Virus record (IMG/VR): IMGVR_UViG_3300013132_000091
Coordinates: 1-42,922 of that record
Source: a virus
Direction: 5' to 3' (one strand)
Length of the DNA: 42,922 nt
The notes beneath the pieces are model-generated. The model ran no database searches. It saw only the letters and a list, made by a program, of their open reading frames with translations, and was not told the origin of the DNA. The position numbers were made by a program, and so were the translations under genes. Shown piece after piece: positions 2,547 to 40,400 of the stretch (its first letter is position 1; the number at the start of each line of letters is the position of its first letter).

Positions 2547-2795
2547 ATGACGGAAGAACAATGGGAGCCGGAAGAGTGGGATATTGACGAAATCGACCGG
2601 TCGGCTTACACAAATGCCGAATGGCTGATTTGGGAAATTGACAGCTCCGGCCTAGACTTGAGAATCAGAGACGGGAAAGTATTTGTCCTCCACGGTGAGG
2701 AATATCTAACACAAGATCAAATCCAGGCGCTGAAGGACTTGGATATGTACGTGTTGACGGTCCTCGCCATCCGTGAGGCAACGGGTCAGCGTTGA
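2547..2795 (+). CDS. Small acidic protein, TubC-docking-like
   Basis: 82 residues. After an acidic, Trp-rich N-terminus (EEQWEPEEWDIDEIDR) comes a pattern L-x3-DSSGLDLRIRDGKVFVLHG, then LTQDQIQALKDLDMYVLTVL. This resembles the helix-strand-strand-helix of TubC N-terminal docking domains, which phages also carry as stand-alone proteins. Here the role is unknown. Third positions are less G/C-biased than in upstream genes (for example ATT, TTT, GAA, AAA), suggesting a more recent acquisition. The stop codon overlaps the -35 box of the next promoter. Confidence 0.6.
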   Translation: MTEEQWEPEEWDIDEIDRSAYTNAEWLIWEIDSSGLDLRIRDGKVFVLHGEEYLTQDQIQALKDLDMYVLTVLAIREATGQR

Positions 2796-2819
2796 CACCC
2801 CGCTCGCCAGCAATACAAT
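2792..2819 (+). promoter_or_regulatory. Strong sigma70-type promoter of the non-coding locus
   Basis: TTGACA (2792-2797), 16-nt spacer, TACAAT (2814-2819): six of six and five of six matches to the -35 and -10 consensus. Transcription should begin near 2826. No start codon follows; the transcript would run through folded RNA and tRNA(-like) domains to the terminator at 3467-3500. Confidence 0.75.
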
Positions 2820-2825
2820 GCCAGC

Positions 2826-3014
2826 GCGGCCCCTGATCCGGTGGGCTGAGAGAAAAACCGGGTGCCATCAAATCAGCGGCACTGCGGATGGACGCAGCGA
2901 CCTGTCTGTGATCTGCCGTAGGAACGTAATGTCCGGCAGAAAGAGTCATGACGCGCTGTAGGACCAGCTACCAATGACCGGCGCGCGAGCTAGTATCAAG
3001 CCTAGCCCGCTGAT
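2826..3014 (+). ncRNA. Folded 5' domain of the non-coding transcript
   Basis: No credible reading frame. A perfect 15-bp long-range stem (2865-2879 with 3007-3021) closes a multiloop containing at least four hairpins: CTGCG/CGCAG around GATGGA (2882-2897), TCTGCCG/CGGCAGA around a 15-nt loop starting TAGGAAC (2912-2940), GTAG/CTAC around GACCAG (2958-2971) and GCTAG/CTAGC around TATCAAGC (2989-3006). The 3' strand of the closing stem is also the 5' acceptor strand of the tRNA-like domain that follows, so the two folds exclude each other. No known RNA class recognised. Confidence 0.55.
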
Positions 3015-3126
3015 TTGATGGTGTAGCTCAGTTGGTAGATCGGACGCACGGAAAAAGCGAAGCGGTAGGAAATGACCGCCGTGCCCGTGGTCGGCGCGCT
3101 GGTTCAAGTCCGGCCACCATCAACCA
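3015..3126 (+). ncRNA. tRNA-like domain 1 with an extended hairpin in place of the anticodon loop
   Basis: Recognisable tRNA ends: 8-bp acceptor TGATGGTG (3016-3023) with CACCATCA (3115-3122), A73, encoded CCA (3124-3126), TA at positions 8-9, D arm GCTC-AGTTGGTA-GATC (one mismatch), and T arm GCTGG-TTCAAGT-CCGGC (3098-3114). The centre is not a normal anticodon arm. GCACGG (3046-3051) pairs with CCGTGC (3079-3084), and the 27 nt between include a second hairpin CGGT/ACCG with loop AGGAAATG. No seven-base anticodon loop can be drawn, so decoding is unlikely. It may be a decayed tRNA or a tRNA mimic. Confidence 0.6.
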
Positions 3127-3222
3127 TCACGCATGCGGAGTGACGGCAGCCGCTGGATGCTTGGCCGAAAGGCTGATTTCAAGCCAGCGAGTGAAGAGCC
3201 GCCAATCCGCATCCGTGATGGT
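3123..3222 (+). ncRNA. Long hairpin with GAAA tetraloop
   Basis: Outer stem of 16 bp with one C-C mismatch: ACCATCACG-C-ATGCGGA (3123-3139) with TCCGCAT-C-CGTGATGGT (3206-3222). Inside, CGCTGG/CCAGCG (3151-3156/3184-3189), CTTG/CAAG (3160-3163/3180-3183) and GCC-GAAA-GGC (3164-3173) stack towards a GNRA tetraloop. This shares bases with the CCA end of tRNA-like domain 1 and the 5' acceptor strand of domain 2. It may be a processing structure or an alternative fold. Confidence 0.5.
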
Positions 3223-3351
3223 CAGGGCAATGCTGGGGGTTCCCGGCACCCAACAGTGTGAAGCGCGGTACTAGGAACGGCGGAGCTGCAGCGAAACCGG
3301 GAAAGTCACCCGATCCGCGCAATCCCGGTACAACAGGGATGCCATCAACCA
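3216..3351 (+). ncRNA. tRNA-like domain 2 (CCA-ended, non-canonical)
   Basis: TGATGGT (3216-3222) can pair with GCCATCA (3341-3347, one G-U), followed by A and encoded CCA (3349-3351). Immediately 5' of the 3' acceptor strand lies a 5-bp arm ATCCC/GGGAT (3322-3340) where a T arm should be, but its loop GGTACAACA is nine bases and lacks TTCRA. The interior is about 100 nt and includes GCTGGG-GGTT-CCCGGC. The 3' architecture matches a tRNA; the rest does not. The 17-nt end CCATCAACCATCACGCA is shared with domain 1. Confidence 0.4.
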
Positions 3352-3355
3352 TCAC

Positions 3356-3428
3356 GCAGGTAAGCCCAAGGTGGGCCGCCAGCCTTCCAAGCTGTGCAGA
3401 TGCGGTTCGATTCCGCATACCTGCTCCA
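3356..3428 (+). tRNA. tRNA-Gly (anticodon UCC)
   Basis: Acceptor GCAGGTA (3356-3362) pairs with TACCTGC (3418-3424); discriminator U and encoded CCA (3426-3428) follow, as in bacterial tRNA-Gly. Anticodon loop CTTCCAA (3384-3390) gives UCC at 3386-3388, on stem CCAGC/GCTGT with an outermost C-U mismatch. T arm TGCGG-TTCGATT-CCGCA is canonical. The D arm is short: GCCC/GGGC with a 5-nt loop AAGGT and only one linker base, so total length is 73 nt including CCA. It may supply GGA codons, which are rare in the G/C-biased phage genes, or be partly degenerate. Confidence 0.75.
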
Positions 3429-3430
3429 AA

Positions 3431-3500
3431 ACGCTCCTAAGCGTGAGTTCGGGGAACCGAGCCGAGAACCCGCCACCCTGCAAGGTGCGCGGGTTTTCTT
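3431..3500 (+). terminator. Intrinsic terminator of the RNA locus, preceded by two hairpins
   Basis: The terminator itself is AACCCGC-CACC (3467-3477), loop CTGCAA, GGTG-C-GCGGGTT (3484-3495), an 11-bp stem with a one-base bulge, running into TTTTCTTT. Just upstream are two small hairpins, ACGCT-CCTA-AGCGT (3431-3444) and TTCGG-GGAA-CCGAG (3448-3461). This ends the transcript started at about 2826 and separates it from the terminase operon. Confidence 0.8.
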
Positions 3501-3516
3501 TCGCCCACACCCCTAT

Positions 3517-3547
3517 CGGTTGACTCCGAGCCCCATCCTCATCTAAT
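3517..3547 (+). promoter_or_regulatory. Late promoter/operator copy 1 (before terminase)
   Basis: CGGTTGACTCCGAG at 3517-3530. TTGACT (3520-3525) is a good -35, followed after 16 nt by TCTAAT (3542-3547), five of six to the -10 consensus. The -35 is framed by CGG and CCG, so a dimeric regulator could cover it. It lies 84 bases upstream of the small terminase start and directly after a terminator, as expected for an independent promoter. Confidence 0.6.
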
Positions 3548-3630
3548 GCCCCCGCCGAGAGATCGGTTGCAAACGATGTTCGCCCCGGTGGCCACTACCG
3601 CCGGGGCTCCTTTTCCCGGAGTCACCCAGC

Positions 3631-4311
3631 ATGCCTGCGCGCAAGAGTGCGTCCGCCAAGGATGGCACGCCCACACCTGCAGAAAAGCCCGCCAAGCGCA
3701 AACTGGTCGATTGGCCTGCCGTGGAGCGCGACTACCGCACCAGCCAGATGACGCTGCGGGAGATGGGCCAGAAGCACGGATGCACGCACGGCGCCATCGC
3801 ACAGCAAGCCAAGGCCAGAGGGTGGCAGCGCGACCTTCGGCCCGCCATTGAGCAGGCCACACAAGCCCGGCTGATCGAGTCGGCGCTATCCAACGCGGTA
3901 TCCGGCGCTACCCAAGAGCTAACCAATGTGGTGCTCGCAGTCGCCGAGGTCAACACCCAGGTCATTCTCAAGCACCGCACCGGCCTGCAGCGCATCACGC
4001 GCATCAAGGAGCAGTTGCTGGACCAGATCGAGCAGGCCGCCATGAACCTGCCTGACTTGGCCGAGGCCATCGAGATGGTTCGCAGCCCTGACGAGAACGG
4101 CCAGGACAAGGCAAACGACGCGCTGCGCAAGGCCATGAGCCGCACATCGCTGGTGGACGACCTCAAGAAGTTGGCCGAGGTGGACGAGAAGGTGCGCAAG
4201 GGCGAGCGCGAGGCATTCAACATCGCAGGCGGCGAAGACCCGGACACCGGCACAGCCAAGCGCAAGCGCGTGCTGCTGGACTTCGTGGACGTTGAGGACA
4301 AGAGCGCATGA
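3631..4311 (+). CDS. terS: Terminase small subunit
   Basis: 226 residues. After a basic, Lys/Pro/Ala-rich leader (1-28) comes a helix-turn-helix resembling small-terminase DNA-recognition domains: DWPAVERDYRTSQMTLREMG, then QKHGCTHGAIAQQAKARGW (about residues 30-70). The rest is helical with likely coiled-coil segments for oligomer formation. It directly precedes terL and overlaps it by four bases. TerS binds the packaging site and regulates the large subunit. Start ATG 3631 follows CGGAG at 3618-3622. Position and HTH support the call; sequence similarity in TerS is always weak. Confidence 0.8.
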   Translation: MPARKSASAKDGTPTPAEKPAKRKLVDWPAVERDYRTSQMTLREMGQKHGCTHGAIAQQAKARGWQRDLRPAIEQATQARLIESALSNAVSGATQELTNVVLAVAEVNTQVILKHRTGLQRITRIKEQLLDQIEQAAMNLPDLAEAIEMVRSPDENGQDKANDALRKAMSRTSLVDDLKKLAEVDEKVRKGEREAFNIAGGEDPDTGTAKRKRVLLDFVDVEDKSA

Positions 4312-5600
4312 TGGCTGAGGCCGATCAAGTGCAGGAGATCCGGGCCGAGTTCCCGGCGAAGCTGCGCCCGCTGTTCAGGCCCAAGCGCTACAAGGTCATG
4401 CACGGTGGCCGAGGTGGCGGCAAGTCGTGGGCCGTGGCTCGTGCGCTGCTGCTGATGGCGGCCGACCAGCCTTTGCGCGTGCTGTGCGCGCGTGAGATTC
4501 AGAAGTCCATGAAGGAGTCGGTTCACCGGCTGCTCAAAGACCAGATTGTTTCGCTGGGCCTTGAATCCGAGTTTGAGGTGCTGGACACCGAGATCCGCGG
4601 CTACAACGGCTCCGTCTTCCTGTTCACCGGCCTGCAGAGCCACACGGTTGACTCCATCAAGTCCTACGAGGGTGTTGATCGCGTCTGGATTGAAGAGGCG
4701 CACGGCGTATCCAAGAAGAGCTGGGACACGCTGATCCCGACCATTCGCAAGGCCGGCTCAGAAATCTGGCTCACGCTGAACCCGGACATGGACACCGATG
4801 AGACGTGGGTGCGCTTCTGCGCGGCGCCGTCTGACGACACCTGGGTGTGCGAGATCAACTGGCGCGACAACCCGTGGTTCCCCGAAGTGCTCAAGGAAGA
4901 GCGGCGCAAGGCTCAGGCCAGCATGCCGGCCGACGACTACGACAACATCTGGGAAGGCAAACCCAAGCGCGTTGCGGCCGGCGCCATCTACCGGCACGAG
5001 ATCGAGGCGCTGTTTGCTGACAAGCGTATCTGCCCGGTGCCATACGACCCGTTGTTACCTGTGCACACGGTCTGGGACTTGGGCTGGAACGACGCCATGA
5101 CCATCATCATGGTGCAGCGCACGCCCACGACGGTGAACATCATCGACTACATCGAGGACAGCAACCGCACCTATGCCTGGTACGTGTCCGAGCTGGAAAA
5201 GCGCCCGTACCGGTGGGGTGCGGACTACCTGCCGCACGACGGCGCCGCCAAGAACCCTCAGACGGGCATCAGCAGCATCCAGGCGCTGCAAAACCTGGGC
5301 CGCAATGTGGCCGACCCGCTGCCGGCCGTTGATGTGGAAGAAGGCATCAAGCAGGCCCGCATGGTGTTCCCGAAGTGCTACTTCGACCAGATCAAGACAG
5401 CGCGCCTGCTGGAGTGCCTGAAACGCTACCGCCGCAGCATCAACCAGCGCACCAACGAGCCGACCGGCCCGCTGCACGACGAGCACAGCCACGGCGCCGA
5501 CGCTTTCCGCTACATGGGCATGGCTGTGCCGCTGATGCGCAACAGCATCGATTCCGACTCCCTCAAAGCATTCAAGAACCGCGAGCGCCGCGGTCTGTAA
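4308..5600 (+). CDS. terL: Terminase large subunit (Terminase_3 type)
   Basis: 430 residues. ATPase domain: Walker A GGRGGGKS at residues 33-40, adaptor-like LCAREIQKSMKESVH, Walker B hydrophobics plus EE in VDRVWIEEAH (about 124-133) and the coupling motif LTLNP. The nuclease domain begins near residue 250 with VWDLGWNDAMT, and a late acidic motif HSHGADAFRYM (about 393-403) completes the RNase H-like site. It powers DNA translocation into procapsids and cuts the concatemer. Length is typical for PBSX/Terminase_3 enzymes. ATG 4308 overlaps terS (ATGA); ATG 4311 is an adjacent alternative. Confidence 0.95.
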   Translation: MMAEADQVQEIRAEFPAKLRPLFRPKRYKVMHGGRGGGKSWAVARALLLMAADQPLRVLCAREIQKSMKESVHRLLKDQIVSLGLESEFEVLDTEIRGYNGSVFLFTGLQSHTVDSIKSYEGVDRVWIEEAHGVSKKSWDTLIPTIRKAGSEIWLTLNPDMDTDETWVRFCAAPSDDTWVCEINWRDNPWFPEVLKEERRKAQASMPADDYDNIWEGKPKRVAAGAIYRHEIEALFADKRICPVPYDPLLPVHTVWDLGWNDAMTIIMVQRTPTTVNIIDYIEDSNRTYAWYVSELEKRPYRWGADYLPHDGAAKNPQTGISSIQALQNLGRNVADPLPAVDVEEGIKQARMVFPKCYFDQIKTARLLECLKRYRRSINQRTNEPTGPLHDEHSHGADAFRYMGMAVPLMRNSIDSDSLKAFKNRERRGL

Positions 5601-28495: not shown

Positions 28496-31400
28496 ATGGA
28501 CCTCAACGAAGCACGCAAGCGACTCCCTGAACTGGCCGGACTGAGCGACGAGTCCGCGCTGAACGTCATCCATCAGGTCTACTACCCGGCCATGGAAAAG
28601 GCGGCGCTGGCCGAGCGCCTGGGCTACAAGGCCCCGCCGCCGCCCACGCCCGACCGCTCCATGGTGCGCGCAGCCGGGGACATCGGACTTTCGCTGGGCC
28701 AGGGCGCAGCAGGCGCGTTCAAGGCGCTGTCGGACGTTGCCGGCGCTGACAACGTGGTGTCGCAGAAGCTGGGCGATATGTCCGAGTTTCTGGGCAACCA
28801 GAAGAGCGAGCAGTCCAAGGCCACGCTCAAGGCCAGCCAGGAGCGCGTGAAAGCCGCCGAGGAATCGGGCAGCACATGGGAAGAGGCCAAGGCTTACATG
28901 GAGATGCTGCTGGACCAGCCCGGCGAGTTTCTGGCGCAGGGTGTGGGTTCGTTCGCCACGCTGGGCCTTGGCAAGCTGGCTCAGGGCGTGAAGCTCGCCA
29001 GCGCAGCCAAAGCGGCCGGCATGAGCAAGCAGGCTTTCTTGGCATCCAAGGCGGGGCAAGAGGCCATCAAGGAAGCGGCCAAGTTCGGCTTCAAGGCCAA
29101 CGTGGGCATTGGCTCCGCGATGGGTGTGGGTGCCGTGAAGGGCTCGCAGTACGAGCAGACCTACAGCAACGCCATCGCCCAAGGCATGCCGGAAGATCAG
29201 GCGCAGGCACTGGCGACCGAGGCGCAGCGTTACGGCGGCAGCGGGACCATGCAGCAACTGCTGGGCGGCGGGCTGGGTGCGCTGGCGGCATCGACTGGCC
29301 CGATTGAACGGCTGGTGATGGGACAGGGCGCGCGCAATGCCGCGACCGGCACCATGGCCGCGATGGGAAAAGGCTTCTTGGTCGAAGGCAGCACGGAAGG
29401 CGCGCAGGGCGGTCAAGAGCGGTTCGCAGGGAACACCGCCGCCATTGATGCCGGCGTGCTGGACCCGTCCAAGCGCATGCAGGGCGTTGTCGGTCAGGGC
29501 CTCATGGAAGGCACGATTGGCGGCGTCATTGGCGCAGCGGCCGGGCCGTTCGAGGCGCAAGCGCCGATCAACCTGCCGAACCAGGCGCGCGAACCCCTGC
29601 CGCAACCCCAGCCAGCACCGCCCGTGGAGCCGGCCGGGCCGATGACGAGGGCGCTGAATGTTGGTGCCCAAAAAGCAGCGCCATTGCCGCCGCCCGTATT
29701 GGATGAGTCGGTCCTCCGCGACAACGGCGTGTACCCTCCGCCAGTCCTTGACGATGCAGCCATCCAGTCAGGAATTTTGAGCGGCGATGAACTGCGCCAG
29801 TTTGATGCGAAGCAGAGCAATGCAGCCACGCAGGCACAGCCGGCGCCCAATGCCGAGACAGCCAACGAAGATCCTGTAGACGAGCAATTCACACAACCCA
29901 TTGTGAGCGCGGGTTTCCAAGAGGCACTGCGCCAAGCTGAAGCGGATGGCATCGACACAGAGGCTGTGTTGGAGCGGGCCGCGATGAACACGCAAACCGG
30001 ATCGGATGAGGACTATGAGCGCGAGGCATTGGCGCTGATTGCTCAGGCGCGGATTTGGGATGCGAAACAGCCAAATGATGGTTCTCCCGCAGCTCCCGCA
30101 GGGAACGCAGGGAACGCAGGGAATGAAAGCCCGCAACCCCTTGCGCAACCCCTTGCGCAACCCCTTGCGACCGACATCCTGAACCCAAAGGGATTTCCAT
30201 TCAAAACCAGAAAGACCGCCGAACTTGCCGCCAAGAAGACGCCGGGCGACATCGTGCCGGTGGAAGGTGGTTTTGTTGTCCGACCACAGGAGAGCACCCT
30301 TGCAAACACCGCCGCCCAAGAAGTCCCCGAGGCAGACGCAGCACCAGTGCAAGCCGATCAGCCCGCAGAAGCCGTGTCCTTTGCCGACGCCGCAGATGAA
30401 GCTGGCGGCTATGCTGTACGTGGAAGCGATGAACAGGGGGCCGTGGAGGCACTGAGCGATGTCCAAAACGCACCGCAACCAACCACAGCAGCAGGAGTCC
30501 CGACAAAAACCCGACAAAAACCCGACATTGGCGCCACGGCAGTTGAAGCGCAAGCGCCAGCGCGAGGCGATGGAGCCGCCGCCGCTGGAGTACCCGACGC
30601 GGGAGCCGGTGCCGGTGTACGGGCGGATGGGGTAGGAAAAGAACAATTCGACCCACAAGGTACTAAGCCTGGTACACCTGAATACGAATACGCATTTGAA
30701 AAATGGGTCTCCGGTCAGTCGGACAAAAGATTGGAGATCAATCGCACTCGGCAGCGTCAAGAAAACACGGCGGCAGTCCAAAAGCGCAACGGCTGGCGAT
30801 CAAAGATCCGCAAGTGGTTCTTGGGAGCCAAGGACGGAGACACGATTACTGACACTGGAACAGGTCAGAACTACAAAGTTATTGAGAAGAAGCGCAAGGA
30901 CGGAACAAAGACCAAGACGCTGGTAGCCACAGATGAGAACGGAGCCCCGCTTGATGACGGCCGAGCTGCAACAGGAATCGCACAAGTCGGGGATCGGGTT
31001 GAAGGATTGGATGACGGTGGTATTGACGATGACACCGGATCTGCAACTCCAGAAACTGCCGGCCAGTCGCTTGCATCAAGCCTTGGGAAACAATTGGAAG
31101 ATGGCGATGCCAAGACAGCATCTCCTGCAGCCACTGACGTTCAAGCCGATGGGGTGAAGAAGCCGCCATTCGCCAAGAAGGAGGATGTCGAGCACCTGTT
31201 CGGCATCGACCAGAAGCGGAATGCCGCACTGGACCGCATCGCAAAGGGGACGGCCTACTTCGGAACCAAGGAAAAGGCGGCCGATTTTGTGGCCAAGTCC
31301 GGCATCAAGGACACGCACGAGGTTGTGCAGGCCAAGCCCGGCCGCTTTGAGATCCGCGCCAAGGCTGGAAGCGGTATGCAAACCGCAGATGCGCCGGCAG

Positions 31401-34400
31401 AGCAGGCCGCGCCGTCTGCGGCGCCGGAAAGCACTGTCAAGGTTCCGCCCGACATCGACGCCGCCATCGCTGGCCAGATGCAGAAGCAGAAAAACCGTGT
31501 CGCGCGCTTGAAGCGCGAAGCGGAGCAGCCAGGCATGACGCTGGACGAAAAGCGCCAGGCGCAGACCAAGGTGCTGGCCGCTGAAACCACGCTGCGCAAG
31601 ATGCGGACCTCCGTGTTCGACGCCGAGGATGCCGCTATCAAGGCACTGGAAGCCGGCGATGTGGCTGCATTCGACGCCCATGCCGACCTGTTCCCTGATG
31701 TCGTGGCTGCGCTTGAAAAATCCATCGGACAGAAGCCTGCCGAGTCCACGAAAGGCCCAGGCGAGCAACTGGCCGAACTCAATGCCGAGCTGGAGCGCCA
31801 GGGGCCGGTGCAGAACGCCAATACCCGCGCCAAACGCGACCAGATCCGCCGCGAGATTGCCGAGCGGGATTTCCCGGAGATCCTGAAAGCGGTTGACGGC
31901 GACATCGATACTGCCGAAGACCTGAACCGGGCATTCCAGTACGCCGGGGACGAGCCAAGGGCCAAGACGGTCGAGCGGATCTTGAAGAAGCGCGGCATCA
32001 CGGCCGAGTATCAGAAGGTGTGGACCGGCCGGCTGCTGGCCCAAGACGGTCAACAGGACGATACCCTGGAAGACCCGGAGATGGCGGCCTACGAGAATGG
32101 CCTGACGGCGAATACGCGGGCGCAAGACCGTGAAAAACTTGCCCCAGGCACCAGGGTTAACGGCTCCGCCGAGCGCGCAGCAGCCGACCGCCTGCAGCAG
32201 ATCTACAACCAGATGGATGGCATCAACCGGCGCAACACCCGCGAGGGCAATGCGAAGGAAACCATCAGAACCGTGATTGAAGAACTGCGCAAGCCGCGCA
32301 CCGTCAGCAGCGTGGTCCCCATGCTGGACGGAGCCGCCAACGGCCTGGACCGGAACTATGGTGCGCTGGCCGACGTGGTGCGCGAAGTTGCCGACAGCCT
32401 GAACGGCGAAGCAGCGCCAGCAAAGCCGACGCCGGCCAAGCCTGCCGCCACCGCCAACACTATCTTCACAGAGGACGCCGCCGCCGCCGCGCGCGCCTTG
32501 CTCAAGAAGAAACTCAGTGGCGGCACGCTCAACAGCGGAATTGACCCCGAGATCCTGCAAGCCGGCATCACGCTGGCCGGCTACCACATCGAGAAGGGCG
32601 CCCGCACGTTTGCCGCCTACGCCAAGGCCATGGTGGGAGACCTGGGCGACAGCGTGAAGCCGTACCTCAAGAGTTGGTACGCCGCCGTGGCGCTGGACCC
32701 GCGCGCCACCGGATTTTCTGGCGACATGACCCCGCTTGGGGATGTCATGGCCGCCGATGTGGACAAACTGGCCGCTGAGGCTGATACTGTTGAGGACCAA
32801 ACCCGTGACGACAATGCAACACGCCCACTGGATCAGCCAGGCCAAGGAGCACTGGAAGGAGCACCGGCCGCAGATGTTCAAGGAACTGCAGAAGCAGGGC
32901 CTGCTGGACGCGCGCCTGCAGGAAGCCGCGGAGGCGACCAGCCAGGCGATGCAGGAGCTGATGGCACAGGGGTTCGCGCACCACGAGGCATGGGAAGCGA
33001 CCCGGCAGCAGTACCTGTTCCTGCCGGAAGAACCCGGAGCCAGCGAGGAAGCGCCGACAAGCGACGGGCTGCGCCTGATGCGAGAGATGAACGAGGGCCT
33101 TCGCTATTTGGGGATGACGGAGCAGGAGATAGCCGCGGCGAAACTGGACGAGTAGAGCCGCCCGCCTTCCAGCCGACCGACTTCACCATTGAAGAAGACT
33201 TCGCGCTGGGTGAGGGTGGCCAGAAGGCCAAGTACCGCGCCAACGTCGATGCCATCCGCCTGCTGCAGAAACTCGAAGCCGAGCAGCGCCATGCTACACC
33301 CGACGAACAGAAGGTGCTGGCCAAGTACGTCGGCTGGGGTGGCATTGCCCAGGCATTCGACGCCGAGCACAAGGATTGGGGCCGCGAGTACGCCGAGCTG
33401 CGCGAGCTTCTGAGCGACGAGGAATACAACACCGCGCGCCGCTCTACCAGATACGCGCACTACACCAGCCGCCCGATCATCCAGGGCATGTACGACGCCA
33501 TGAAGCGCTTTGGCTTCACGGGCGGCAAGATGCTGGAGCCAGGCGCCGGGGTGGGCAACTTCATGGGCCTGATGCCCGCCGACCTTCGCAGCGGTTCGCG
33601 CCTGACCGGCGTGGAGCGCGAGCGCATCGCGGCCGGCATCGCGCGCCACTTGTACCCGAACCAGAACATGCAACTGCAGGACTTCACGCAGTTCAACGCT
33701 CAGGACGGGTACTTTGATGCGGTGATCGGCAACCCGCCGTTTGCCGCCGATGGCCTGGTGGATCAGTCGGGCCGCAAGCACCTGTCCGGCATGGCGGTGC
33801 ATGACTACTTCTTTGCAAAGTCCGTGGACATGCTGCGAGACGGTGGCGTGTTCGCCGCCGTGGTGTCCAACGGGTTCATGGACAAGGCCGGCGACCGGGC
33901 GCGCAAGTACATCGGCGAGCGCACCAAGCTGCTGGGTGCCATCCGCCTGCCCAACAACGCCTTCGCCAAGAACGCCAACACCGAAGTGACGACCGACATC
34001 GTGTTCCTGCAGAAGCTGCCGGAATCCGAGTGGGGCAGCAAGGCGGCCAAGGCCGACTTGAAGCGCTGGCTGGACGTGACGACCATCCCTGACCCAAAGG
34101 GTGGCGATCCCATCAAGATCAACCAGTATTTTGCGGACAACCCGCAGATGATGCTGGGCGAGTACGGGCGCTTTGGCACCATGTACGGCCCGGACCAGCC
34201 CGCCCTGGTGGCGCGGCCCGGCCAGGACACCGCCGCCCTGCTGCGCGCCGCCATCGAGCGCCTGCCGGCCGGTGTGTACCAGCACGCCGCTGTGATCGGC
34301 ACCAACAAGGCCACCCGCGACGTGATCGAGGCGCTGCGCGACAAGAGCGTGCAGGAGGGCGGTTTCTACGTGGACGGCGGCAAGCTGTACCAGCGCATGC

Positions 34401-37400
34401 AGGACGTGGCCGGCGAGTCGTCGGCCCGCCTGCTGACGCCCGAGACGCAGTGGACCGAGAAAACCACGCTGGGCGAGTCTCGCTACGAGCGACTGGTGCA
34501 GTTGGCCGGAATGCGCCGCACGCTGCGCGATCTGCTGGCCGCTGAACTGGCCGACGACAAGGCCATGGAAGGGCTGCGCAAGAGCCTGAATGAGCAGTAC
34601 GACGCCTACGCCGCCAAGCACGGCCTTATCAACGACCCGAGCACCGCCCAGGTGTTTGACGACGACCCGGATTTCCCGCTGCTGGCCGCACTGGAGATGA
34701 ACTACGCCCGCGGCATGGGGCCTGCAGCCGCCAAGGCGGCCGGCATCAAGCCCTACAAGTCCAAGGCCGACAAAGCGCCGATCTTCGCGCGCCGCGTGAT
34801 CGAGAAGCGCCAGGCGGTGCAGAAGGCCGAGACGCCAGAGGACGCGCTGAACGTGTCCATTGCCGAGCGCGGCCGGATCGACGCCGGCTACATCGGCCAG
34901 TTGCTGGGCCGCCCGGCCGACGAGGTGCTGGAGGAACTGACCAAGGGCGACAAGCCGGCGCTTTTTGTGGACCCGGTGACGGGCGAGCATGTGTTGCGTG
35001 ACGCCTACCTGTCCGGCAACGTGCGCAAGAAGCTGCAGCAGGCGGAAATGGCCGGCATGGATCGCAACGTGCGCGCTCTGATGGAGGTTCAGCCCGAGGA
35101 CGTGGGCGCACACGAGATTTCCGCGCGCATTGGCTCGCCCTGGGTGCCAACCGAGGTCTATCAGGACTTCATCAAGGATCTGCTTGGCGATGGCACCAAG
35201 GCCACGGTGGCGTATGTGCCCACCAACAGCGCATTCTTCATCAGCGTCAAGGCCGGTTCGGACACCGCCAACAACCTGACCTACGGCACGAGCAAGATGG
35301 ACGCCGAGGCGATCCTGAACGCGCTGCTGAACAACCGCACGGTCAAGGTCACGTACACCGACTCCGATGGCAAGACCCATCTGGACAAGGAAGGAACCGA
35401 CGCCGCCATGGAGAAGGCAGCCGACATTCGGGCGAAGTTCCAAGACTGGCTCTTTGCGGATGCCGAGCGGGCCGAGGTGCTGGTGCGCTCCTACAACGAC
35501 ACCAACAACAACTACGTGACGCGGGTGTACGACGGCGCGCGCATGGAGTTCCCCGGAAAGGTGCCTGACTCCATCATCAAGTTCCGCCGCCACCAGCGCA
35601 ACGCGATTGCGCGGATCGTACAGGACCGCACGGCGCTGCTGGACCATGTGGTCGGCGCCGGCAAGACCTTCACGGTGATCTCAGGCGCGATGGAACTCAA
35701 GCGCACCGGCCTGGCCAAGAAGCCGCTGATCGTGGTCCCGAACCACCTTGTCAAGCAGTGGGCGGCCGACTTCTACCGCCTGTATCCTGGCGCCAACATC
35801 CTGACGGCCACCAAAAAGGACTTTGCGCGCGAGAACCGCCGCCGCTTCCTGGCCAAGATCGCAACCGGCGATTGGGATGCCGTCATCATGGCGCATTCCT
35901 CGTTCGGATTCATCCAGCCTGACCCGGATTTTGAAGTCGAGTTCAACGAGAAGCAGGTGGCCCATATCAAGGCCGCCATCGAGAAGGTCGATGCTTCGGA
36001 CGGCGACGAGAAGGGCAAGAAGCGCACCGTCAAGCAGTTGGAGGGCCTGGTGGAGCGCCTGGAGAACCGCATCAAGTCGCTGCGCGACAAGGCGGTGGAC
36101 AACCTGCTGGACTTCAAACAGGTCGGCGTGGACCAGTTGTTTGTGGACGAGGCGCACTTGTTCAAAAACCTGATGTTCAGCACCAAGATGCAGAACGTGC
36201 AGGGCCTGGGCGACAGCAAGGGATCGCAGCGCGCCTACGATATGTACGTCAAGGTCAACCAGCTCTACGCCCAGAACGGCCGCGGCCAGGGCGTGGTGTT
36301 TGCCACGGGTACGCCCGTGTCGAACACGCTGGCCGAGATGTACCACATGATGCGTTACCTGATGCCGGCCGCCATGGACGAGGCAGGCTTCCAGAGTTTC
36401 GACGCCTGGGCCAACACCTTTGCATCGGTCGAGCAGGTGTGGATGCAGAAACCATCCGGTGACGGCTACAAGGCCAGCGACCGCATGGGCACATTCAGCA
36501 ACGTCCACGAGTTGCTCAAGATGTTCGATCAGGTGTCGGACACCGTGACGATGGAGGACATCAAAACGGCCTATGCCGAAGAAAATGGCGGCAAGGCATT
36601 CCCGCTGCCCAAGCTCAAGAACGACCGCCGCACGCCGGTTTCGCTGGTGAAGTCCGAGGCCCAGAACGCCTACATGGACGAGATCGCCGAGCGCGCCAAG
36701 AAGCTGGAGGCCAAGAAAGGCCCGCCGCAGAAGGGTGAAGACAACTTCCTGACCATCATGTCGGACGCCCGCAAGGCCGCCATGGACGTGCGCCTTGTGC
36801 GCGAGGACATCAACGACCGCGAGCCTGGCGCCCGCATCGACCGATCCACCGACGAGGTGGTGAGCCGCTACAAGCAGTACGACAGCGTGAAGGGCACGCA
36901 GTTGGTTTTCTCCGACCTGGGAACGCCGCTCAAGAGCGCCAAGAAGGAACTCAAGGAGTACGAGGAACTGAAAGCCCGCATCGACGCCGGCAACGATGCC
37001 GATGTGCAGGCCGACGCCGCTCTGGGCGACGAAGCCGCACAGGCCAAGATCGAGGATGCCGAGGCCGCCCAGGAAGAACTGGACGCCAAGGGCCGCGACT
37101 GGCTGGGTGCCATCAAGGCCGCGCTGCGCGGTTTCTCAGTGTACGACGACTTCAAGGCTGCGCTGATCGAGAAGGGCATCCCGGAAAACGAGATCGCATT
37201 CATCCACGACTTCAACACCGACGACCAGAAGGCCGCGCTGTTCCGCAAGGTCAACGCCGGCCAGATCCGCGTGCTGCTGGGTTCGACCCAGAAGATGGGC
37301 GCCGGCACGAACGTGCAGGAGCGTCTGGTGGCGCTGCACCATCTGGATGTGCCATGGAAGCCCAGCGACATCGAGCAGCGCGAGGGGCGCATTGTTCGCC

Positions 37401-40400
37401 AGGGCAACCGCCTGGCCGACACAATCCCCGGTTTCGAGGTCGAGATTCTGGCCTACGTGACCCAGGACACGCTGGATATGCGGATGTGGCAGACCCAAGA
37501 GGTCAAGTTGAAGATGGTCAACCAGCTTCGCACCCGCCAGATCAGCCGCGAGATCGAAAACCCGTTCGAGGAAGCCGAGATGTCGGCCGGTGAGATGCAG
37601 GCCGCGGCCACCGGCAACATGGACTTGCTGCGCGAGATCCAGCTCCGCTCCGACCTAAAAAAGCTGGAGCAGCGCAAGCGGTCCTTCGACGCCCAGCGCA
37701 ACGAACTGGCGTCGCGCCGCAAGCGCGCCACGGACAGCCTGCGCCGCCTGCCCGAGCAGATCGCGGATCTGGAGGTGCTGGACAAGGGCGCGCGCGACTA
37801 CTTCACCGGCCTGGAGGATCGATCGTTCAAGGCCACCATCAACGGCGACACCTACACCAGCCGGACAGAAGCCGGCGCCAAGCTGCGCGAACTGGCTGCA
37901 GCGCATGAATCCGCCCTGGAAGCCCGCCGCAAGGCTGGCGACGATGCAGGTAAGGCCGCGGCAGACGCCCGCGAAGACTTGTCGCCCGCCGAGCGCACTG
38001 GCATTGCCATGGACGCCAAGGACGCCTACCTGAAATCGAACCCGCTGCCGAAGATGGCCGTGGAGTTCAACGGCAAAACCTACGGGTCCAAGTCGGCGCT
38101 GGCCGACGCCATGACAGAGTTTGCCGGCGACTCGGAGCCCATCGAGTGGAGTTTCGACGGGCAAGAGTTCATCCGCCGCAAGGACATCGCCGCCGCCATT
38201 GAAGCGGTTGTTGCCGAGGCAATCGACACCGACACCGAGGCCAGCATCGGCACCATCGGCGGCTTCCAGGTCACGATTGAAGGCCAGCGCGACAAGTTTG
38301 GCTCTTTCGTGGACATGGTGGTCACGCACAAGGGCAAGACCTACGACAGCACCGCGCGGATCAACGGCGACGACAAGAAGCAGGCCGTGGACATCGTGGT
38401 TCGCGCGGCCGAGCGCATGGTGGCTTCGCTTCCCGACAAGCTGCAGTTTGCCAAGTACGACCTGGCGCGCGCCAAGAAGGCCATGCAGGAGCTGGAGAAG
38501 ACCAGCATGCCGGACGCCTGGCCGGACATGGGCAAGCTGGAGAAGGCCCGCACCGAGCACAAGGAAGTGCTCAAGCGCCTAGCCGGCGAGGGCAAGAAGG
38601 AAGGCGAGGAAGGTGGCGCCGACACGACGCTCTCCATTGACGACAGCACCGGCCCGGCCGATACTGCCGACTATGGACCAGCAACCCAAGCCCACCGAGA
38701 CGCAGCCGCCCGACTCGCTGAATCCTTCGCAGACCGAATCGAAGGCGGTGGATCTCACGCTGATCTGCTGGACGCAGTTGCTCCGGGAGACGGAAAGCGC
38801 GGACAAGCCGCCACTGCTGTTGCCAATATCGCCCGACGACTTTTCCGACGACAAGTTGTTTTCGTGAAGTTCAAGGGCACACCCCTGTTCAACGGGGTGG
38901 TGTCCAAGTCGGTCCCCGGCGTCATCTTCCTGAACATCGACAGCCAGAAGCCGCTGTTGTCCGTGCTCGGCCACGAGCTGCTGCACGAGATGGCCAAGAG
39001 CCACCCGACCATGTACGCGAACCTCTCGCGCCGCCTGGACGACCTCATCAAGAACGAAACCGAGTACGCGGTTCGGACCTACAACGCCTACAAGAAGGCC
39101 GGCATTTCCACCAAGGGCCTAGACACCCGCGAGGAACTGGAGGCCGACATCGTGGGCGACAACTTCATGGACGCCGGTTTCTGGCAGGCCATGGGGGAGA
39201 ACCAGCCGGGCCTGTTCAAGCGCATCGTCAACTTCGTGACGGCGTGGCTGGACAACCTGAGCCAGAAGATCACCGACTACCGGCCGTTTGGAACCGACGA
39301 GTTCCTGACCGACATTGCTGCTGCACGCGATGCGGTGGCCGGCGCCATGCGCGAGTTCAGCGGCGCCGAAGCTGGAGCAGTGGCCGACCCGACTGATGGG
39401 GATGTGAAGCTCTCAGCCGCCCGTGGTACAAACAACGCCATGCCGGTGTTCAACAACGCATCCGGCGACTTCAACCCTGATCTTGACAAGTTCTGGATCA
39501 AGAAAGGGCGTGAAGAAATCCGTGGCGAGGGCATGTCGGATGCGGACTACAACACCGCCGTCGCTGAGTACGCCAATGCATGGCGCATCAATGATCTGTT
39601 GGTTGAACAACTCGGATGGCGCCGTCGCGGGTCAAGCAATGTCTCGTCCTCTACGTACTTTGAAAAAACCATCGAACTTGATGAGCAGAATGAGAATGGT
39701 GAAGACACACTGACCTACGAGGTTCGCGTGACTGACCACGACGACTATCACCCGGCAAGCGGTGGCATATCGAAGCGGTTTCAGGTCAATTTCCGATCAG
39801 TTCAAAGTCAATGGTCTGACGTTGACATCACGCCAGACATGAGCACAAAGGAGGCCATGTCATTGCTGCGCGGCACTCTGGAGACTGACCAATCCGCGCC
39901 GGTATCTGGCGGCGCGAAGCTCTCAGCCGCAGAGAAGCAAGACCAGACCCAGACGCCCAACAACGCCGACATCCGGTTCAGCGTGGTAGACGACATCAAG
40001 CGGGCCTATGCCGACCGCGTGCCCGATGCCGTGCGCGACCGCATCGAAGACCTGACCAGCTCGCAACGCGGATTCAACCGCTGGTGGCACAGCACCGTGG
40101 GCACCCAGCTCCACAAGGCCAAGGTGAACAAGGAGTTCGGTCGGGTCTATTACGCCGTGCAGGACTTCATGAAGGACGTGAGCCGCATGGCGACCTTGGC
40201 GGCCGACCAGGCGCCGGACCTGCTGCCGCATATTGACAGCCTGGCCGACATCAAGAAGGTGGCGCCGCAGATGGGCATTGCCGGGCACCGCCAGCGCAAG
40301 GCCGACATGAAGGCGGCGAGCGATGCGCTGTTCGATGGCACGCTGCGCTACACCCGTGACGCCTACGGCGAACCGGTGGAGGCCCAGAACGAAGCCGATG

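Follow-up and report, generated by a model that had tools for sequence, protein, structure and literature searches.

A conserved tRNA-like module with a rebuilt anticodon arm in a noncoding array upstream of phage terminase genes

The window, by which we mean the whole stretch of DNA analysed here, is the IMG/VR phage record IMGVR_UViG_3300013132_000091 of 42,922 bases. The gene for the terminase small subunit (terS) is followed by that for the terminase large subunit (4308–5600) and then by portal and major head protein genes (PHROGs). An interval of ∼830 bases without a convincing gene separates terS from an open reading frame (ORF) at 2547–2795, and there, just upstream of the DNA-packaging genes, lies the subject of this report: a transfer RNA (tRNA)-like module at 3016–3126 with a rebuilt anticodon arm, here called the mimic. 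It belongs to a noncoding array (2792–3500) with the order long hairpin, mimic, alpha hairpin, beta module and tRNA-Gly. The initial annotation described a tRNA-like RNA whose anticodon loop is replaced by a nested hairpin, and overlooked the larger array with shared strands around it. The features of the locus, and the basis for each, are:

2792–2819, plus strand: promoter-like TTGACA-16-TACAAT (11 of 12 consensus matches)
2865–3021, plus strand: long hairpin module (closed by perfect arms of 15 bp at 2865–2879/3007–3021, from a repeat search)
3016–3126, plus strand: tRNA-like module with rebuilt anticodon arm (Rfam tRNA, ARAGORN intron mode, four homologs, pair counts)
3047–3089, plus strand: replacement anticodon arm (stems change on both sides across five sequences; loop identical in L207)
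3123–3222, plus strand: alpha hairpin (lower stem CCATCACG-CA / GC-CGTGATGG, an upper stem that covaries and an interior that differs between copies)
3216–3347, plus strand: second tRNA-like module, in a beta slot (TGATGG/CCATCA closure, read directly; type shared with L206 and L218)
3356–3428, plus strand: tRNA-Gly, anticodon TCC (ARAGORN; Rfam 34.8 bits)
3477–3493, plus strand: terminator-like hairpin, then TTTTCTTT (terminator-like site search)
3631–4311, plus strand: terS (phrog_1206, E 4.8e-45)

The tRNA character of the mimic, as first described, is borne out by two programs. Rfam RF00005 (tRNA) matches 3017–3122 with 34.1 bits (E 0.0016; gathering 29). ARAGORN with default settings misses 3016–3126, the sole tRNA reported being tRNA-Gly(TCC) at 3356–3428, and the relaxed intron mode draws the whole module, with an 8-bp acceptor followed by A and CCA, as the initial annotation had said it could be drawn. 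The acceptor strands TGATGGTG/CACCATCA lie at 3016–3023/3115–3122, the D stem (3026–3029/3038–3041) contains one C.U mismatch, the T arm (3098–3114) reads GCTGG-TTCAAGT-CCGGC, and the 3′ end consists of A 3123 and CCA 3124–3126. At the anticodon position stands a two-part stem capped by AGGAAAUG. Its outer stem, CACGG (3047–3051) with CCGTG (3085–3089), is separated by an A-rich internal loop from the inner stem, GCGGT (3062–3066) with ACCGC (3075–3079), and the octaloop AGGAAATG (3067–3074) closes the latter. The outer stems are 33 nt apart instead of the usual 7, an excess of ∼26–27 nt that agrees with the insert of 27 nt counted originally. The module thus has the acceptor of 7 bp (or 8) and the T arm with a TTCRA loop that are expected of a tRNA, but not the 5-bp anticodon stem with a 7-nt loop, for which a nested conserved hairpin is substituted.

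Four relatives of the mimic were found in unrelated phage loci. L207 came from an ARAGORN intron-mode scan of 184 array regions in which the loop sequence was not used, L382 and L383 from an IMG/VR pattern scan, and L352 from a hairpin scan; because matches in a 15-mer scan were mostly due to chance, longer patterns were used instead. The tRNA body and the loop AGGAAATG are common to all five copies, and the stems that present the loop vary with pairing preserved: GCGGT/ACCGC, GCGGG/CCCGC and CGGGG/CCCTG occur as inner stems, and CACGG/CCGTG, ACCGG/CCGGT and GCCG/CGGC as outer stems. In the five-sequence alignment 93% of cells are paired, falling to 30–57% when the structures are slid by 1–3 columns, both sides change at 4 pairs, and the covariation score was matched by 1 of 500 shuffles. 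The mimic lies on the terS side in the window; it adjoins an integrase gene in L207 and a methyltransferase-like ORF in L383, follows a lysis-type gene in L382 and is flanked by structural genes in L352; all four homologs, too, place it within arrays of modules. The arm is rebuilt in each of the four relatives and normal in none, which fits a maintained mimic and not a broken tRNA; a normal arm among relatives was the outcome that the initial annotation had named as contradicting it. A covariance model of the five, run over 97 sources, returned no sixth close copy, its weaker matches including canonical tRNAs, beta1 modules (described below) and odd tRNA-like sequences (L210, L262, L291). Neither the mimic nor the beta1 pattern occurred on the chromosome in any of 399 (order) and 398 (phylum) sampled bacterial genomes, and a model, R1, run on two whole genomes returned what appear to be ordinary tRNAs (∼78 nt). 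As for a pairing partner of the loop AGGAAATG within the array, 6-mer complements occurred in L207 and L383 only, and none is shared by all five loci.

The mimic shares strands with its neighbours at both ends. The 3′ arm of the long hairpin overlaps the 5′ acceptor strand, comparable hairpins being present immediately 5′ of the mimic in L382 and L383, and the 5′ arm of the alpha hairpin starts inside the CCA. The arrangement continues downstream, where the alpha 3′ arm GATGGT doubles as the 5′ strand of the module at 3216–3347. In this beta type, which includes the copies in L206 and L218, the D-like and T-like loops seem complementary by reading (GTACC/GGTAC), like those of beta1. At 3342–3358, just before tRNA-Gly, the start of an alpha hairpin, CCATCAACCATCACGCA, recurs with the 3′ arm missing, which looks like the loss of a module or its replacement by the tRNA. 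Promoter-like and terminator-like sites flank the array on both sides, which we count in favour of a dedicated transcript: two promoter-like sites were found in the region against 0.4 expected, and a second, stronger terminator-like hairpin lies at 3582–3607. The whole array transcript folds better than shuffled sequences (z −4.0, from only 20 shuffles).

Among relatives of the window defined by the terminase genes, most lack an array. L004, the closest relative of the locus (71.7% DNA identity over window 3489–4310), has one before terS, made of an alpha hairpin and a canonical beta1 module and containing no tRNA; the locus therefore retains an array of changing composition. L002 and L005, which are close terminase relatives, have no array upstream of terS; by eye, they carry a small ORF there resembling the GIY-YIG type. 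Elsewhere in the window, a single ORF of 4,739 amino acids occupies 28496–42715, one third of the record, and is of the type of the very large proteins of some podoviruses.

Dozens of phages carry modules of the alpha and beta kinds. In 44 distinct alpha copies the lower stem CCATCACG/CGTGATGG is almost invariant, and 96.5% of upper-stem cells pair, with 53 both-side changes against 7.4 (maximum 16) in shuffles. One position is mostly a T.G pair, U.G in RNA (26 of 44 copies). The 134 distinct copies of the beta1 module have an acceptor-like stem of 7–8 bp with nearly free sequence that is 92.4% paired, G.U pairs included, and shows 250 both-side changes against 71 (maximum 89) in shuffles. The D-like arm reads GCGC-AGGCTGAT-GCGC and the T-like arm GCCGG-AGATCAGCA-CCGGC, and the middle between them varies. 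The D and T loops are complementary, and GCTGA/TCAGC switches to GTCGA/TCGAC. In a scan that left those loop bases free, GCTG always occurred together with a T loop that was ATCAGC-like or nearly so, and GTCG occurred with TTCGAC in the DS8 clade, the double change thus coming from one clade only. The pattern indicates that the beta1 loops may form a kissing elbow.

Strand sharing extends to these modules as well. For the 7-mer at the start of the beta1 acceptor, an exact complement lies within 320 nt upstream in 37 of 127 copies, whereas 2.7% of control 7-mers have one, and 20 different 7-mers are represented among the cases. Neighbouring modules with shared strands therefore cannot all be fully closed simultaneously; the sharing may serve as a timed switch or as a relay of folding, or may simply result from the exchange of modules.

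Carriers of alpha and/or beta1 include P1, Bas77-80, ep3, HK633, IME10, phi_D3, ZC03, DS8, Madison and CSP3. In HK633 the array is located between pR′/qut and the holin gene, and in IME10 between Q and S; in the window, L086, L206 and L215 it is close to terminase genes, and in DS8 and Bas80 it is antisense to the flanking structural genes. In P1 (L248 2930–3215; OP279344 ∼65561–65846) alpha and beta1 lie between tRNA-Thr and the tciA region, with a further beta1 at L248 3440, and the beta1 of ZC03 belongs to a tRNA cluster, where tRNA-Arg and tRNA-Leu flank it. The HK633-type element was matched in 162 of 5,426 complete E. coli genomes, over most of its length in 89. Array regions are rich in ordinary same-strand tRNAs (42 in 184 regions, compared to 2 in 176 controls). 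In the named phage records opened, the modules are not annotated as RNA, and some are overlain by short hypothetical ORFs; no Rfam family other than tRNA matched the mimic or the arrays. The Klebsiella phage Madison has ∼3.2 kb without annotated coding sequence (L256 1417–4630), which appears to consist of many structured RNA modules in a row. In L249, L253, L256, L260 and L261, from enterobacterial phages, the alpha hairpin follows a further conserved block that resembles a leader (ACTTTGCGG..AGAAACTGACCACAAAGATAAATGCAAACGA..). Directly 5′ of beta1, a whole tRNA-Arg in ZC03 (L255 2385–2500), and an odd tRNA-like sequence with a rebuilt anticodon arm in Jeremy (L262 2370–2500), appear to be nested in alpha-type hairpins.

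We consider it somewhat better than even (probability roughly 0.55) that 3016–3126 is a functional, non-decoding tRNA mimic and one module of a dedicated noncoding transcript from ∼2826 to ∼3500. Its architecture has good support, from the conservation of the tRNA body, the constant AGGAAAUG loop on compensatory stems, membership in arrays and strands shared at both ends. Its function we infer. Transcription would run from near 2826 to near 3500, and host tRNA enzymes may recognise the tRNA-like ends, RNase P at the 5′ end and 3′ trimming or CCA enzymes at the other, so as to excise the module and stabilise or protect it. The acceptor strands could also pair with the neighbouring hairpins, in which case folding of one module would compete with that of the next, and the AGGAAAUG hairpin on its tRNA-like scaffold would bind a putative partner, either protein or RNA.

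Several observations weigh against this interpretation. Five copies are known. The pattern that retrieved L382 and L383 required AGGAAATG, so the unbiased loop identity is that between the window and L207. The folding energy of the mimic alone is unexceptional (z −1.1), and the case is therefore built on conservation and not on energy. The competing stems are candidate pairings read from complementarity of sequence. The encoded CCA of the initial annotation is present in the window but not conserved, since L382, L383 and L352 lack it, and where it occurs, in the window and L207, the 5′ arm of the following hairpin also starts with it. Aminoacylation, one of the roles first proposed, is not supported, because the CCA is not conserved and the anticodon is absent.

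A processing signal or spacer is a plausible alternative, unlikely on balance. The tRNA-like fold would serve mainly to recruit RNase P and similar enzymes, which cut the array and free the tRNAs (here tRNA-Gly) or downstream late genes, with the arm as filler. Such a role may be suggested by the alternation of modules with real tRNAs, as for the ZC03 beta1, and by the overlapping stems of adjacent modules, but filler would not hold an 8-nt loop constant amid covarying stems, and many arrays have no tRNA close by. A serious rival, and a rather improbable one, is a structured leader that controls the late or packaging genes that follow, for example by antitermination or attenuation through competing stems. 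It is taken seriously because arrays adjoin Q, holin and terminase genes, as in HK633, IME10, the window, L086, L206 and L215, and mutually exclusive pairings are built in. Against it, terminator-like hairpins separate the array from terS, the DS8 and Bas80 arrays are opposite to the flanking structural genes, and that of ZC03 is in a tRNA cluster.

Phage-encoded tRNAs are known to counter tRNA-cleaving defences such as PARIS, a topic addressed in PMC11455837. The mimic, which keeps the tRNA body, has lost decoding and was confined to phages in the genomes sampled, might similarly act as a decoy for host defences that attack tRNAs, either anticodon nucleases or effectors that recognise the elbow or acceptor. 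We regard this as quite improbable. Anticodon nucleases, the target of the decoy first proposed, cut the 7-nt anticodon loop, and that version is weakly supported because no such loop remains; the constant AGGAAAUG loop is unlike any anticodon loop. That the element acts as DNA, for instance in packaging or recombination, is very unlikely: arrays adjoin terminase genes in several phages and the alpha lower stem is invariant in sequence, but the T.G pair of alpha, the G.U pairs of beta1 acceptor stems, the constant same-strand association with tRNAs and contexts without any packaging gene point to RNA. Hardly credible is a decaying tRNA gene (or a sequencing error), rejected because four relatives keep body and loop while the stems covary and the arm persists in five copies, or a tRNA with a small anticodon-loop intron, which we also reject, since ARAGORN intron mode draws tRNA-Gly(gcc) with a 34-nt intron in the window and a different anticodon and insertion site in L207, the drawn anticodon stems are mismatched, and the insert, to which no Rfam intron corresponds, falls short of the length of a self-splicing intron.

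Beyond the single module, we think it more probable than not that the non-decoding mimic is a member of a class of modular RNAs, widespread in phages and so far undescribed, in which alpha hairpins and tRNA-like beta modules form strings linked into a chain by strand exchange and carry interchangeable effector arms. The beta modules would lack an anticodon, share their acceptor strands with neighbours and form an elbow by kissing of the D and T loops, the AGGAAAUG arm would be one effector arm, and the class would span P1, lambdoid, BASEL and Schitoviridae phages and many environmental phages. The entire array may well represent a new class; no published description of the mimic or the array was found in the literature searched, which did not extend to most subscription papers or to any preprints. 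A conserved non-decoding mimic would mean that phages retain tRNA-shaped RNAs for roles beyond translation, and default tRNA finders may be passing over further tRNA mimics among the RNAs of phage tRNA islands. With related modules in P1, HK633 and BASEL phages, the question is testable in E. coli with existing tools.

Known RNAs resemble the mimic in part. YrlA, a bacterial Y RNA, likewise has a tRNA-like domain within a noncoding RNA, but nothing in the window matches it at the Rfam gathering score. Transfer-messenger RNA (tmRNA) also combines a tRNA-like domain with extra sequence; ARAGORN found none in the window, and the tag reading frame is absent. The tRNA-like structures of plant RNA viruses are viral RNAs that imitate the tRNA fold (reviewed in PMC5723415), but these are at the 3′ end of the genome, whereas the mimic is an internal module of a multi-module transcript in a double-stranded DNA phage with terminase genes. 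Phages and prophages also encode GOLLD and ROOL, noncoding RNAs with elaborate structure and unknown function that frequently lie close to tRNA islands (PMC12286853). The Rfam covariance models of both are not matched here, and each is one long conserved fold, in contrast to the short alternating modules, variable in number, seen here mainly in proteobacterial phages. The mimic also resembles tRNAs (RF00005) and phage tRNA clusters. It has an acceptor stem, a D arm and a T arm with GGTTCAAGTCC, and the two halves on either side of the insert, 5′ and 3′, match the tRNA-Ile gene of Dinoroseobacter phage DFL12phi1, itself without an insert; unlike a tRNA, it has a two-part arm capped by AGGAAATG in place of the 7-nt anticodon loop, a CCA that is not conserved and strands shared with adjoining hairpins. 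Mimicry of tRNA is already known, as are large RNAs that phages carry close to tRNA islands, and the mimic fits neither, because its anticodon loop fails the definition of a tRNA and no other model matches.
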